NCBI GenBank assembly: GCA_938048695.1
Contig: CALIUO010000007.1
Coordinates: 111,556-175,555, forward strand
DNA length: 64,000 nucleotides
DNA from: an uncultured SAR86 cluster bacterium
GTDB lineage: Bacteria > Pseudomonadota > Gammaproteobacteria > Magnimaribacterales > Magnimaribacteraceae
Direction of reading: 5' to 3'
Part shown: positions 23,638-29,332 of the stretch, in pieces
Numbering within the stretch: the first letter of the stretch is position 1
Layout of the letters: the number at the start of each line of letters is the position of its first letter
The notes under the pieces: model-generated
Database searches by the model: none
What the model was told of the DNA's origin: nothing
Seen by the model: only the letters and a program-made list of their open reading frames with translations
Program-made: the position numbers and the translations under genes

Positions 23638-24852
23638 TTAACCTTCAGCCCATTCTATCGAATCTATATCAACTCCATCCTTATACATGTCCCACAAAGG
23701 GGAAAGAGTTCGGAGTTTTTCTACGGAGTCTCTAACTAGATTTATTGTGTATTCTACTTCTTCTTCAGTTGTAAACCTACCAATAGCAAATCTTATTGAA
23801 CTGTGGGCGAGCTCATCTTTGAGACCAAGTGCTCTTAAAACGTAAGAAGGTTCCAAGCTTGCAGAAGTACATGCAGAACCAGAAGAAACAGCTATATCTT
23901 TAAGTGCCATTATCAAGGACTCACCTTCAACATAGTTGAAACTTACGTTTAAGAAACCCGCTGCTCGATATAACTCATCTCCATTCAAGTAGACTTCCTC
24001 CATGTCTTTTATCGCATCCCAAAATTTATTCCTAAGCCTTTCTATCCTTTCGTTATCTTCTTCCATGTCTAACTTTGCAATCCTGAAAGCTTCACCCATT
24101 CCTACTATTTGGTGCGTTGCTAATGTACCTGATCTCATACCTCTTTCATGGCCCCCACCATGAATTTGGGCCTCAAGTCTTACCCTAGGCTTTCTTCTTG
24201 CGTACATAGCACCTATACCTTTTGGTCCGTATGTTTTGTGTGCTGAGAAAGACATTAGATCGACCTCCAGGTTGGACAAATCAATCGGTAACTTTCCAGT
24301 GCTTTGGGCAGCATCGACATGAAATATTACTCCAGCTTCTCTAGTGATTTTTCCAATGGCCTCAATGTCATTTACCACACCAATTTCATTGTTTATATGC
24401 ATGAGAGTGACTAAGATTGTTTTGTCAGTTATGTTTTCTTTAACAAGATCTGGGGAAATAATTCCGTTTGAATCAGGATCTAAGTATGTTACTTCAAACC
24501 CTTCTCTCTCCAGCTGTCTGCAGCTATCGAGAACAGCTTTGTGCTCTATTTTTGAAGTAATTATGTGATTACCTTTAGTTTTATAAAAAGTTGCAGCGCC
24601 TTTTATAGCTAGATTATCTGACTCAGTTGCTCCTGAGGTCCAAACTATTTCTCTTGGATCACAATTTACTAAATCAGCAACATGCTGTCTTGCTTCTTCC
24701 GTAGCTTCTTCAGCTTTCCATCCAAAGGTATGAGATCGAGAAGCTGGATTACCGAAGTTTCCGTCAATAGAGAGGCAATCTTGCATTTTCTTTACTACCC
24801 TAGGATCTGCAGGAGTAGTAGAGGCATAATCTAAATATATTGGTAATTTCAT
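23638..24852 (-). CDS. iscS: Cysteine desulfurase IscS
   Basis: [55 protein letters not shown]. Confidence 0.97.
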
Positions 24853-24855
24853 ATT

Positions 24856-25308
24856 TTATCCTGTTGCTATATGAACTTTGTCTTTTAATTGAACACTACC
24901 TCTCCTATTTGAAATGACATCGTCTAAAGATCTTGTCATTAAAAATTCATTTACATTATCGTTAAAATCCATCCAGAAATTGTGAGCGATGCATTTAGAG
25001 CCGCCATTACAAATGCCTTCACCTGAGCATTGTGTAGCATCCATATTTTTTTCTACCGCACTAATAATTTCTCCAATCATTATCTGGTCTCTCGGTCTAG
25101 AAAGCTTAAAACCCCCTTTGGGACCTCTTGCAGCAGAGAGTATTTCCGCTTTGCGAAGAAAACTAAATATTTGCTCCAAATAAGGTGCAGGTATAGATTG
25201 ACGTTCAGCTACTTCAGCAATTTTTGAATAACGGATATCAGCCTGCTCCTGAACGGCTAAGTCCAGAACAGCAGTAACAGCATATTTTCCTTTCGTGGTT
25301 AGATTCAC
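24856..25308 (-). CDS. iscR: Rrf2-family Fe-S regulator IscR (GTG start)
   Basis: MNLTTKGKYAVTAVLDLA; Fe-S ligand region with three Cys (CSGEGICNGGSKC); first gene of the isc cluster. Confidence 0.95.
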   Translation of the reverse strand: MNLTTKGKYAVTAVLDLAVQEQADIRYSKIAEVAERQSIPAPYLEQIFSFLRKAEILSAARGPKGGFKLSRPRDQIMIGEIISAVEKNMDATQCSGEGICNGGSKCIAHNFWMDFNDNVNEFLMTRSLDDVISNRRGSVQLKDKVHIATG

Positions 25309-25320
25309 AGCGGTAATTGT

Positions 25321-25349
25321 ATATTCCTGACGGATTTAGTCAAGAATAT
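25321..25349 (-). promoter_or_regulatory. Candidate IscR type-1 operator overlapping the iscR promoter
   Basis: ATATTCCTGAC-ggattta-GTCAAGAATAT: 11-bp arms matching at 10/11. Minus strand ATATTCTTGACTAAATCCGTCAGGAATAT resembles the E. coli type-1 consensus ATASYYGACTRwwwYAGTCRRSTAT; also contains a TTGACT -35-like hexamer. Confidence 0.75.
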
Positions 25350-25372
25350 ATTGCATAGAACTAATAATTTGT

Positions 25373-25384
25373 GGTACATGTACC
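25373..25384. promoter_or_regulatory. Perfect 12-bp palindrome GGTACATGTACC (candidate operator)
   Basis: Identical to its reverse complement; in the iscR / oxidoreductase divergent intergenic region. Confidence 0.5.
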
Positions 25385-25449: not shown

Positions 25450-25466
25450 TAATATGTACCATATTA
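25450..25466. promoter_or_regulatory. 17-bp inverted repeat TAATATG-TAC-CATATTA (candidate operator)
   Basis: Perfect 7-bp arms with a 3-nt centre, about 30 nt upstream of the ATG at 25497. Confidence 0.45.
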
Positions 25467-25496: not shown

Positions 25497-27515
25497 ATGA
25501 GTAACATGGACACTAGGTACCTTTTTAAAAGGTACAACACATGGTGGGTAAAAGTTGCTGTACCTAAAACTCTGCGCAGTGAACTAGGCTACGATCTAAG
25601 ACAGTCTCTCAAGACACATGATTTAGATAAGGCTCAAGAGTTAAGATGGCAAGTAGTAGACCAGCTTAAAGCAAAAATAAATCAAACAAAAGGAATTGCA
25701 GCAGAAGGTACATTAGAAGTTGACTCGTCTGTTGTTAACTATGTACCTGCAACGGATACTACAAATCCTCAGTACTATCACAAGGTAGTTGAGTGTCAAC
25801 ATGCGTGCCCTGCTCACACTCCTGTACCTGAATATATAAGACAGATATCTCAAGGTAATTACAACGAAGCATATATGCTTAATTGGGAATCAAATGTATT
25901 TCCAGGAATCTTAGGACGTACATGTGATAGGCCTTGCGAACCTGCATGCAGAAGAACAAGAACTCATGAAAAAGCTGTCGCTATATGCAGACTGAAAAGA
26001 GTTACATATGACCACAAGGATGATATTGCACCTTTGATTCCCCTTCCAGAAGAAAGCAATGGCAAAAAAGTTGGTTTGATTGGAGGTGGCCCTGCTTCGC
26101 TTACAGTGGCAAGAGATTTAGTCCTGATGGGATATGAATGTACGCTTTTTGAAAGAGACCCGCAAGCTGGTGGGCTGATGAGAACAAACATACCTTCTTT
26201 TAGATTACCTGAACAAGTTTTAGACGAAGAAGTTAATCAAGTCTTAGATTTGGGAATAAAGACTGAATTTAATTCTGAGATAACAAGTATGAAAAAACTA
26301 CTTGAAAAGGATTTTGATGCAATTTTTGTCGGAACAGGGGCGCCTAAGGGAAGAGACATAAATATCGAAGGAAGAGAAGAAGCTAATGATAATGTTCATA
26401 TAGGTATAGATTGGCTCACAAGCATAGCTTTTGAACACACAAAATCAGTAGGCAAGAAAGTAATAGTTCTTGGGGGTGGTAATACTGCCATGGATTGTTG
26501 TAGAACTGCAATTCGACTTGGAGCTGAAGAAGTAAAAGTGACCGTAAGAAGTCCCTTTGATCAAATGAAAGCCTCAGAATGGGAAATAGAAGATGCTATG
26601 GGAGAAGGAATACCGATCCATGACAATCATGTACCCAAACGCTTCATAGTGAAAGACGGCAAACTTGTGGGAATGGAATTTGAAAAGGTAGAAGCTGTTT
26701 TTGATGAAAATGGTAAAAGAAAATTGGTACCTACTGATGAAGATCCTGTAATTTTTGAATGTGATGATGTTTTAGTTGCTATTGGGCAAGACAATGCTTT
26801 TGAATGGATAGAGCGTGACATAGGAATCGAATTTGGTGAGTGGGATATGCCTATAGTCGATAAGGTGACTTTCCAATCCTCAAACGAGAAAGTATTTTTT
26901 GGTGGCGATGCTGCCTGGGGTCCTGAAAATATAATTTGGGCTGCAGCTCATGGACACCAAGCAGCTATTTCAATAGATAAATTTTGTAAGGATTTTGACT
27001 TATACCAAAGACCTGAACCTACAACAACGTTAATAAGCCAAAAGATGGGTGTGCATGAATGGTCTTATGACAATGACATATCGCAAGCTAAAAGATACTT
27101 AGTACCACACGCAGATAAGAGAGATGCTCTAAAGGATCTAAAAATGGAGGTAGAGCTTGGTTTTGACGAAATAACAGCATTAGAAGAAGCTCAACGTTGC
27201 TTGAATTGTGATGTGCAAACTGTTTTTTCTGAAGATTTATGTATCGAATGTGATGCTTGTGTAGATATTTGTCCGACTGACTGTATAAGCTTTGTTCATA
27301 ATGATTCAGAAGAAAATTTAAGAAACAAATTAAGAATACCTGCCATCAACTTAAATCAACAAATTCTTGTTTCTGAGCAACTAGAGCAAACAGCCAGAGT
27401 AATGGTAAAAGACGAAGATGTCTGCCTTCATTGTGGATTGTGTGCTGAGAGATGTCCTACTGGTGCATGGGATATGCAAAATTTCTTATATCAAGAAGCT
27501 AAGGTTTATTCATGA
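25497..27515 (+). CDS. GltD-like FAD/NAD(P) oxidoreductase with C-terminal 2x[4Fe-4S] ferredoxin domain and N-terminal DUF6538/integrase-N-like segment
   Basis: N-term RYLFKRYNTWWVKVAVPKTLRSELGYDLRQSLKTHDLDKAQELRWQVVDQLKAKI; then CQHACPAHTPVPEYIRQI...CDRPCEPACRR, VGLIGGGPASLTVARDLVLMGYECTLFER, VIVLGGGNTAMDCCRTAIRLGA; then CIECDACVDICP and CLHCGLCAERCP. Confidence 0.9.
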   Translation: MSNMDTRYLFKRYNTWWVKVAVPKTLRSELGYDLRQSLKTHDLDKAQELRWQVVDQLKAKINQTKGIAAEGTLEVDSSVVNYVPATDTTNPQYYHKVVECQHACPAHTPVPEYIRQISQGNYNEAYMLNWESNVFPGILGRTCDRPCEPACRRTRTHEKAVAICRLKRVTYDHKDDIAPLIPLPEESNGKKVGLIGGGPASLTVARDLVLMGYECTLFERDPQAGGLMRTNIPSFRLPEQVLDEEVNQVLDLGIKTEFNSEITSMKKLLEKDFDAIFVGTGAPKGRDINIEGREEANDNVHIGIDWLTSIAFEHTKSVGKKVIVLGGGNTAMDCCRTAIRLGAEEVKVTVRSPFDQMKASEWEIEDAMGEGIPIHDNHVPKRFIVKDGKLVGMEFEKVEAVFDENGKRKLVPTDEDPVIFECDDVLVAIGQDNAFEWIERDIGIEFGEWDMPIVDKVTFQSSNEKVFFGGDAAWGPENIIWAAAHGHQAAISIDKFCKDFDLYQRPEPTTTLISQKMGVHEWSYDNDISQAKRYLVPHADKRDALKDLKMEVELGFDEITALEEAQRCLNCDVQTVFSEDLCIECDACVDICPTDCISFVHNDSEENLRNKLRIPAINLNQQILVSEQLEQTARVMVKDEDVCLHCGLCAERCPTGAWDMQNFLYQEAKVYS

Positions 27516-29332
27516 ATAAAATTGAATCAGTTAATGATTTCGTAATTAAGTTTGCCAACGTAAATGGTTCTGGATCTGCAAGTGCAAATCAAATGTTTGC
27601 AAAAGGTGTATTTAGATCAGGCATTCCGGTTAGCCCTAAAAATATTTTCCCATCAAACATACAGGGCCTTCCAACATGGTTCGAGGTCAGGGTAAATGAA
27701 AAAGGATACTTAGGAAGAAGAGAAGGTATAGATATCTTTGTAGCCATGAATCCTCAGTCTTATCAAAAGGATGTTGCAGAACTAAAACAAGATGGCTACC
27801 TAATCTATGACTCTTCGTGGAAAAGAGATTTTGATAGAGATGACATTAATATTTTGGAGATACCTCTTACTAAACTTTGTGTTCAAGAATTTACTAATCC
27901 AAAGCAAAGGCTTCTCTTTAAAAATCTTGGCTATGTAGGGCTTTTAGCTTCTATATTGGAGATGGATAAAGAAATTTACATTTCACTTATAGAAGAACAA
28001 TTCAGAGGTAAAGAAAAATTAATTGAACCTAATGTTAAGGCATTAAATATAGGCTATAACTATGCTGAAGAAAATTTTAAAGATTATTGCGATATAAAAG
28101 TTAGCAAATCAGATAAAACAGATGGTCTGATTTTAACAAGTGGAAATGACGCGGCAGGTCTGGGGTGTGTTTATGGAGGAGCAACAGTTTGTGCTTGGTA
28201 TCCAATAACACCTTCTACCTCTCTTGCAGAGTCTTACAATAAATACAGCGAAAAACTAAGAGTTGAAATAGGCACAGAAAAAAATAAGTTTGCTTTTATA
28301 CAAGCAGAAGATGAATTGGCTGCTATGGGAATTACAATAGGAGCTAACTGGAATGGAGCTAGAGCTTTTACTGCAACTAGCGGACCAGGAGTGTCCTTAA
28401 TGAGTGAATTTATTGGATTAGCCTATTTTGCTGAAGTTCCTACAGTTTTGTTTAATGTGCAAAGAGGCGGACCTTCAACAGGGATGCCAACAAGAACTCA
28501 ACAATCAGATATCCTTTGTTCAGCATATGCATCGCATGGGGATACTAAACATGTTCTGCTGATACCATCTGATCCAAAAGAATGTTTTGATTTTGCTGTT
28601 GAAGCTTTTGATCTTGCAGATAGACTGCAGACTCCTGTAATAGTTTTACTGGACTTGGATTTAGGGATGAATGACTGGTCAACAAAAGAATTTGAATGGG
28701 ATGATTCGAATGATTATGACCGAGGCAAAGTACTTTCAAAAGAAGATTTAGACGGAATTGAAAAATTTGGAAGATATCTTGATGTAGATGGGGACGGAAT
28801 ACCTTACAGAACTTACCCTGGAACTCATCCTGAGAAAGGTGCTTACTTCACTCGAGGAACTTCACATGATGAATATGCAGGATATACCGAAGATGGAGTG
28901 AAAAATGCCGAAATGCTATCAAGGCTTTTAAAGAAATTCCAAACTGCTTCCTCGCTAGTCCCGGCTCCTGTATTTAATCAAGAAAAAAATAACAGTTCGA
29001 TGGGTATTATCTATTTCGGAAGTACTGATTGTTCTATGCAAGAGGCTTTAGATATGCTCGAAGAACAGAACATGAAAATAGATGCCATGAGAATAAGGGC
29101 ATTTCCTTTCAATCTAGAGGTTTGGGAATTTATTGAAGACCATGACTTATTATTCATAGTTGAACAAAATAGAGATGGGCAGATGAGAACGTTGATAATG
29201 GCAGAAGGTGGAATAATCCCAGATAAACTTGTTTCTATTTTATGCTTTGACGGTCAACCAATCACTGCAGAACATATAACAAATAAAATAAATACACACT
29301 TGTCGGGGAAACCTGTACTGGCTGCTTCTTAA
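27512..29332 (+). CDS. 2-oxoacid:ferredoxin oxidoreductase, fused gamma-alpha subunit (KorA-like)
   Basis: N-terminal gamma-like region; YPITPSTSLAE, FIQAEDELAAMGITIGANWNGARAFTATSGPGVSLMSE, QRGGPSTGMPTRTQQSD. ATGA overlap with the previous gene. Confidence 0.92.
   Translation: MNKIESVNDFVIKFANVNGSGSASANQMFAKGVFRSGIPVSPKNIFPSNIQGLPTWFEVRVNEKGYLGRREGIDIFVAMNPQSYQKDVAELKQDGYLIYDSSWKRDFDRDDINILEIPLTKLCVQEFTNPKQRLLFKNLGYVGLLASILEMDKEIYISLIEEQFRGKEKLIEPNVKALNIGYNYAEENFKDYCDIKVSKSDKTDGLILTSGNDAAGLGCVYGGATVCAWYPITPSTSLAESYNKYSEKLRVEIGTEKNKFAFIQAEDELAAMGITIGANWNGARAFTATSGPGVSLMSEFIGLAYFAEVPTVLFNVQRGGPSTGMPTRTQQSDILCSAYASHGDTKHVLLIPSDPKECFDFAVEAFDLADRLQTPVIVLLDLDLGMNDWSTKEFEWDDSNDYDRGKVLSKEDLDGIEKFGRYLDVDGDGIPYRTYPGTHPEKGAYFTRGTSHDEYAGYTEDGVKNAEMLSRLLKKFQTASSLVPAPVFNQEKNNSSMGIIYFGSTDCSMQEALDMLEEQNMKIDAMRIRAFPFNLEVWEFIEDHDLLFIVEQNRDGQMRTLIMAEGGIIPDKLVSILCFDGQPITAEHITNKINTHLSGKPVLAAS

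Follow-up and report, generated by a model that had tools for sequence, protein, structure and literature searches.

Why should an enzyme of redox metabolism begin with a segment that resembles the N-terminal end of a phage-type tyrosine integrase? The question is raised by one gene in the window, the 64,000-nt stretch of DNA from an uncultured SAR86 bacterium. We ask what the segment is, whether it belongs to the protein, where else it occurs and what it might do.

The fusion gene and its operon

The gene and its neighbours are arranged as follows.

25497–27515, + strand: fusion gene; 672 aa, uninterrupted open reading frame; DUF6538 segment, GltD-like FAD/NAD(P) Fe–S flavoprotein and 2×[4Fe–4S] ferredoxin domain
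25518–25685, + strand: DUF6538 (PF20172) domain, aa 8–63; Pfam match; predicted β-β-α-β-α
25686–25766, + strand: linker; length and sequence vary among SAR86 genomes; model confidence low from aa 68
27225–27467, + strand: C-terminal 2×[4Fe–4S] ferredoxin domain, about aa 577–657; Pfam
27512–29332, + strand: 2-oxoacid:acceptor oxidoreductase (OFOR) γ-α subunit; TIGR03710
29337–30392, + strand: 2-oxoacid:acceptor oxidoreductase β subunit; domain matches
24856–25308, − strand: iscR, divergent from the fusion gene
23638–24852, − strand: iscS, without a DUF6538 segment in the window; the orthologue carries the segment in 12 genomes of family f3

The initial annotation had read the N-terminal segment as DUF6538-type, and the Pfam profile confirms this, matching aa 8–63 with 37.4 bits when the 672-aa protein is scored whole and with 42.9 bits when only its first 89 aa are used, against a curated cut-off of 27 bits for PF20172; the alignment spans profile positions 1–57 of 60. 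A chance match was rejected on the strength of this score and of the recurrence of the domain in the SAR86 genome survey described below. After DUF6538, the Pfam domains follow in the order Fer4_20, Pyr_redox_2 and 4Fe–4S dicluster domain. No integrase catalytic or core-binding domain was found by Pfam in the 672-aa protein, which does not qualify as a tyrosine recombinase or integrase. The frame had been described as open straight into GltD-like and ferredoxin domains with no integrase catalytic domain, and both Pfam and the identical frame of SAR86 homologues bear this out. A start at an internal methionine was considered and rejected: close homologues with the start MSNADT have no second methionine, and the first ATG fits. 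For the enzyme part, the best model is PRK12771/NF009410 at 412.5 bits; because this lies below that model's cut-off of 516, the enzyme is described only as GltD-like, without assignment to PRK12771/NF009410.

AlphaFold predicts residues 8–60 with high confidence (means of 91–95 over 10-residue blocks) as a β-β-α-β-α fold. The full-length model is poor, with a mean pLDDT of 60.4, and is informative only on the folded segment and the low-confidence linker. Arm-binding domains of integrases have a three-stranded sheet and a C-terminal helix. Foldseek searches with the segment model, in which a solved example of such a domain might have appeared, returned nothing significant (best E values of 0.58 in the PDB and 0.012 among viral entries), and a profile of the segment gave zero matches to PDB sequences.

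The fusion gene opens an operon, in which the genes for the OFOR γ-α and β subunits come next; a 2-oxoglutarate:ferredoxin oxidoreductase is already known in SAR86 (PMC11582366). Divergent from it run iscR, iscS and then genes read as iscU, iscA and fdx.

Conservation and origin of the fusion

Every complete SAR86 homologue that was read (68–90% identity) has the same frame, and all carry the segment. An artefact of frame, sequencing or assembly was rejected, given an identical frame across many independent genomes. Across 36 pairs of close homologues, dN/dS is 0.105 in the segment, compared with 0.028 in the enzyme part; given this value of 0.105, the segment is maintained as protein, under purifying selection. 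Eleven of its residues (Y8, L9, R12, W17, K19, V22, P23, G31, D33, L34 and R35) are invariant over hosts of different orders.

The nearest homologues outside SAR86, which are 61–67% identical and come from Flavobacteriaceae (L061), Bacteroidetes (L062), Desulfofustis (L064) and Desulfobulbaceae (L068), lack the DUF6538 segment. Because these unfused proteins begin close to where the linker ends (PTD..NPEYFHK), the segment was probably added to a pre-existing enzyme. Conservation in homologues, which the initial annotation had singled out as a check on its reading, is therefore divided: the fusion is general within SAR86, and the closest homologues beyond SAR86 start near the linker end. The accompanying proposal, that a redox enzyme had captured an integrase-type N-terminal module, finds support.

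Two contigs labelled Cytophagales and Marinoscillum (L048 and L067) harbour genes closely related to the SAR86-type gltD fusion, at 75–76% identity, and L048 includes the DUF6538 segment. They represent either mis-binned SAR86 contigs or a recent transfer.

The segment on other proteins within SAR86

The phenomenon is much wider than one flavoprotein and extends to IscS, a Rieske protein, the OFOR α subunit, an NfnA-like reductase and a small tail-anchored protein. Among 203 SAR86-order genomes surveyed, with classes assigned from open-frame lengths and the sequences read, 124 have a DUF6538 match, and in that search no genome had more than a single one. The GltD fusion is found in 60 genomes (25 of family f1, 23 of f3 and 12 of genus g20 in f2), an IscS fusion in 12 f3 genomes and a fusion to the Rieske protein of the bc1 complex in 9 genomes of the f2 genus g15, where the next genes were read as petB and petC. 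In about 40 f2 genomes the segment is borne by a small protein of roughly 150–190 aa with a C-terminal hydrophobic stretch resembling a membrane helix. One SAR86 protein, L148, is a genuine tyrosine integrase with DUF6538, SAM-like and catalytic domains, and the few additional weak DUF6538 matches in SAR86 are ordinary integrases.

None of the surveyed SAR86-order genomes has GltD and IscS fusions together. The IscS tree requires the fused state to have been gained or lost at least three times within f3, which would mean that the fusion partner has switched repeatedly or that alleles have moved between genera.

In the Rieske fusions read (L159–L163, genus g15), the DUF6538 domain lies N-terminal of the Tat signal/anchor and would sit on the cytoplasmic side. 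The small tail-anchored proteins (L144–L147 and L149–L155) combine a DUF6538-like N-domain, a variable linker and a C-terminal hydrophobic helix, and their genes and promoters hold several ATG[AGC]GTACAWW repeats, and often the start codon is part of one such repeat; such a protein could be a membrane-tethered DNA-binding protein. Decayed-looking copies of the gene (L164 in G134, L178 in G187, and in G038 and G044) suggest its loss in several f2 lineages.

Promoter-proximal placement outside SAR86

Of 296 genomes from another gammaproteobacterial order, 37 have a DUF6538 match. At the 30 loci read there, the segment sits on the OFOR α subunit (KorA) in 24 cases and on an NfnA/PyrK-like FAD/NAD(P) reductase in 6. 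At locus L317, the NfnA-like gene stands first and bears the segment, and the GltD-like, KorA and KorB proteins encoded downstream are without it; at L276 and L325, KorA is both first and the bearer, as is GltD in the OFOR operons of SAR86. Judged from these gene orders, the segment belongs to the promoter-proximal position of OFOR operons, not to one enzyme, a placement that fits an autoregulatory domain and not a docking element.

A phylum-wide survey found DUF6538 matches in 10 of 359 genomes and, with the window's own genome excepted, none of these was recognised as a comparable enzyme fusion (L308 and L309 are unassigned). No relatives of the segment were found in the phage records and viral contigs searched.

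A clustered motif at segment-bearing promoters

The DNA around the start of the fusion gene carries repeated short motifs, listed here as putative operators; none is assigned to a strand.

25373–25384: putative operator 1, GGTACATGTACC, a palindrome made of two GGTACA cores set back to back
25453–25464: putative operator 2, TATGTACCATAT, about 40 bp upstream of the start codon
25516–25536: putative operator 3, GGTACCTTTTTAAAAGGTACA, inside the coding start (YLFKRYN codons); partly inverted repeats
25559–25564: putative operator 4, TGTACC over codons A21-V22-P23, inside the coding start

First, the motif is concentrated at this gene: a 400-bp stretch at the start of the fusion contains 9 copies of GGTAC/GTACC, against 4 in the densest separate stretch elsewhere in the 64-kb window. 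The sequence AAAAGGTAC, part of putative operator 3, is retained in all 13 close homologues compared, and the codon for V22 is GTA in 13 of 13, against 35% GTA among other valines. In several close relatives (L003–L007 and L009), a Fur-box-like palindrome, GATAATGATTATCATTA, directly follows the GGTACATGTACC palindrome; it is absent in the window.

Second, segment-bearing promoters share a clustered core, GGTACA/TGTACC, with the variant NGTACA. When 6-mers in the 300 bp upstream of gene starts were ranked without bias, GGTACA came top for the GltD fusions, with 159 copies at 53 of 53 loci versus 4.4 expected, and likewise for the IscS fusions, with 24 copies at 12 of 12 loci versus 0.6. In the order outside SAR86, where these promoters are 50–54% GC, AGGTAC and GGTACA were the top two, with GGTACA seen 49 times versus 2.9 expected at KorA fusions (24 of 24 loci) and 17 times versus 0.8 at NfnA fusions (6 of 6 loci). 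All of these counts are inflated by kinship among non-independent sequences, so we weigh the association on the recurrence of one core at six partner genes that differ from each other, across two orders. Most KorA fusion genes have a copy of the core about 40 bp upstream of the start, and the Rieske fusions and small tail-anchored genes mostly have several copies of NGTACA after ATG. Site spacing and orientation differ between fusions, unlike the 13-bp repeats beside integrases, and in genus g20 some promoters retain just one or two sites.

Third, unfused homologues largely lack the motif. On average it occurs 0.05 times per 500 bp in the petA regions of SAR86 that have no fusion (n = 21), the iscS promoters of families f2 and f4 have 0–1 copies (n = 17), and the two unfused Bacteroidetes gltD promoter regions read (L061 and L062) have none. 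Unfused iscS genes of f3 that share a divergent promoter with a fused gltD have 3–5 copies.

Segment clades, site spacing and native integrases

The segments fall into clade A (GltD, IscS, KorA and NfnA), with the pattern YLFKR..TWW, and clade B (Rieske, the small protein and integrase L148), with a hairpin three residues longer. Within SAR86, clade A promoters have 0.70–1.0 TGGTACA and 0–0.02 TGNGTACA per locus, and clade B promoters have 0.09–0.25 and 2.0–3.8, respectively. In the sequences compared, the three-residue hairpin difference between the clades thus goes with a 1-bp difference in motif spacing, providing a natural series of domain and site covariation. If the hairpin sets the spacing, the clade A domain would favour TATGGTACA over TATGNGTACA, and the clade B domain the reverse.

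The core is also present beside several DUF6538 integrases. Integrase L148 has two copies, 17 and 40 bp before its own start; L321 and L322 have the core twice each, and Azospirillum L328 three times, as direct TGTACC repeats with 13-bp spacing at −20 to −60; and L320 has one copy. All copies at L148, L320, L321, L322 and L328 lie within 60 bp of the start used. Most other DUF6538 integrases examined have different repeats or none, several with 12–13-bp repeats of other words.

Direct repeats of 12–13 bp occur near many DUF6538 integrases (L326–L328, L310, L311, L321 and L322), and the repeated word differs from one integrase to the next. It is possible that these differences reflect a domain/site code.

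Proposed mechanism and alternatives

We think it likely that capture of an integrase arm-type DNA-binding domain, sites included, gave rise to autoregulated enzymes of the PutA kind. Integrases bind arm-type sites through their N-terminal domain, and the segment would be such a domain of a tyrosine integrase, which, along with its GGTACA/TGTACC binding sites, would have been set at the N-terminus of the first protein in redox and Fe–S operons. The fused enzyme would bind the site clusters of its own promoter, which is often divergent, the segment contacting the GGTACA core, and would most likely repress that promoter, as integrases and PutA (put) do; the state of the enzyme (substrate, redox or cluster occupancy) would serve as the signal. 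In the window, synthesis of the flavoprotein and the ferredoxin oxidoreductase would in this way depend on how much of the enzyme is present or on its state, and the isc operon may be co-regulated through the shared intergenic region, since the putative sites lie between gltD–OFOR and iscR. Two roles had been offered at the outset, a DNA-binding regulator, suggested to be redox-dependent, and a structural or docking element; a DNA-binding regulator, for which redox dependence is one possibility, is strongly favoured, because the segment follows the first gene and the promoter motif, not one enzyme.

Four other explanations were weighed. The one that survives best supposes that a separate trans-acting regulator binds GGTACA and that the segment is a passenger, left from an old integrase gene start that was joined on with its promoter. 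The segment does always adjoin the promoter, and one deletion could capture promoter and N-terminus at once. We nevertheless consider it unlikely: the segment has a dN/dS of 0.105 and 11 invariant residues over hosts of different orders, motif spacing follows the segment clade, and the core stands beside some genuine DUF6538 integrases and small tail-anchored genes as well.

The docking role, in which the segment would be a structural element of a redox complex, draws on the fact that its carriers are mostly Fe–S or redox proteins. Those carriers have unrelated folds, however (the PLP enzyme IscS, Rieske, the TPP enzyme KorA and flavoproteins), the same enzymes elsewhere or in a non-first position are without the segment, and the motif clusters would go unexplained, which makes this explanation very improbable.

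Slighter still is the chance that the module is a defence, its domain occupying the arm-type sites of related elements and blocking their integrase, with fusion to an essential protein keeping it expressed. An integrase-type domain with sites, and the single match that each of 124 SAR86 genomes has, would suit such a function; the sites, however, cluster at the module's own promoter, and the phage records and viral contigs searched hold no relative of the segment. Just as implausible is regulation at the level of translation or mRNA structure, with the coding-start repeats acting as RNA and the protein segment a by-product, for although some repeats do lie inverted within the first codons (25517–25535), in most fusion classes the repeats reach as far as 285 bp upstream, face either way and are frequently confined to the upstream DNA.

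IscR and control of the isc operon

Capture of the domain with its sites would also bear on isc, whose regulator gene in the window is preceded by a further element.

25320–25350, no strand assigned: inverted repeat TATATTCCTGAC-N7-GTCAAGAATATA, directly upstream of iscR; overlaps a promoter-like match on the − strand

Judged against the IscR consensus, this repeat is a putative IscR-type site. The iscR gene is present in those f1 and f2 genomes that have isc, and IscR was found in 0 of the 28 f3 genomes searched, though the isc operon is present. The f3 isc promoter carries GGTACA clusters, and the module there is on GltD or on IscS itself, an arrangement in which it may have replaced IscR and which suggests a route of isc control without IscR in one SAR86 family. 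IscR is also missing from the two f4 genomes searched, which are without the DUF6538 module, so its loss need not stem from the module. At the cut-off used, no IscS match was found in G005, G012 (of the window's genus), G047, G096 or G105.

On a broader reading our judgement is evenly balanced: a portable cassette of arm-binding domain and operators would have spread in Gammaproteobacteria through the first genes of ferredoxin-oxidoreductase, isc and bc1 operons, switching partner between IscS and GltD in one SAR86 family, at one copy per genome, and there taking the isc promoter from IscR.

Comparison with known systems

The literature searched contains no report of an integrase arm-type domain reused with its sites on metabolic enzymes, and no paper mentioning DUF6538. 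If the proposed mechanism is true, the DNA-binding end of a mobile-element integrase and its sites have repeatedly been reused as an autoregulatory module for central redox and Fe–S metabolism, in hosts (SAR86) that are among the most abundant bacteria of the surface ocean, and DUF6538 gains a function that can be put to the test, along with a predicted sequence to bind.

The closest enzymes are the PRK12771-like GltD proteins of Bacteroidetes and Desulfobulbaceae, at 61–67% identity, which in L061 and L062 stand with the OFOR α and β genes in the same order; they differ in having no DUF6538 segment. The closest domain relatives are the DUF6538 tyrosine integrases (PF20172, SAM-like and PF00589), which share the N-terminal domain and, in several cases, a TGTACC core at their own start; the fusions, by contrast, are without the core-binding and catalytic recombinase domains.

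Repression by an integrase has a precedent in IntS of prophage KplE1, which represses its own promoter, where this overlaps the arm-type sites (PMC2951348). IntS resembles the fusions, in the role proposed for them, in pairing an N-terminal arm-binding domain with own-promoter repression, but there the whole integrase acts, whereas the fusions keep the N-terminal domain alone, on metabolic enzymes. MrpR, the repressor of prophage SPbeta, is likewise recombinase-related (PMC10516654) and parallels the proposed role as a recombinase relative turned repressor; unlike the fusion, it retains both the core-binding and the catalytic fold, and it stands apart from any enzyme.

PutA is a trigger enzyme that binds its own divergent promoter (PMC8249747). 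The fusion has the architecture of such enzymes, a predicted enzyme and a predicted DNA-binding-type domain in one chain, and resembles them as a metabolic flavoenzyme with operators, here putative, in its own divergent promoter. It differs in that its DNA-binding-type domain is integrase-derived and that the same module and sites occur on at least five different enzymes. Trigger enzymes and a recombinase-related repressor are thus known; what is unusual here is the origin and spread of the module.
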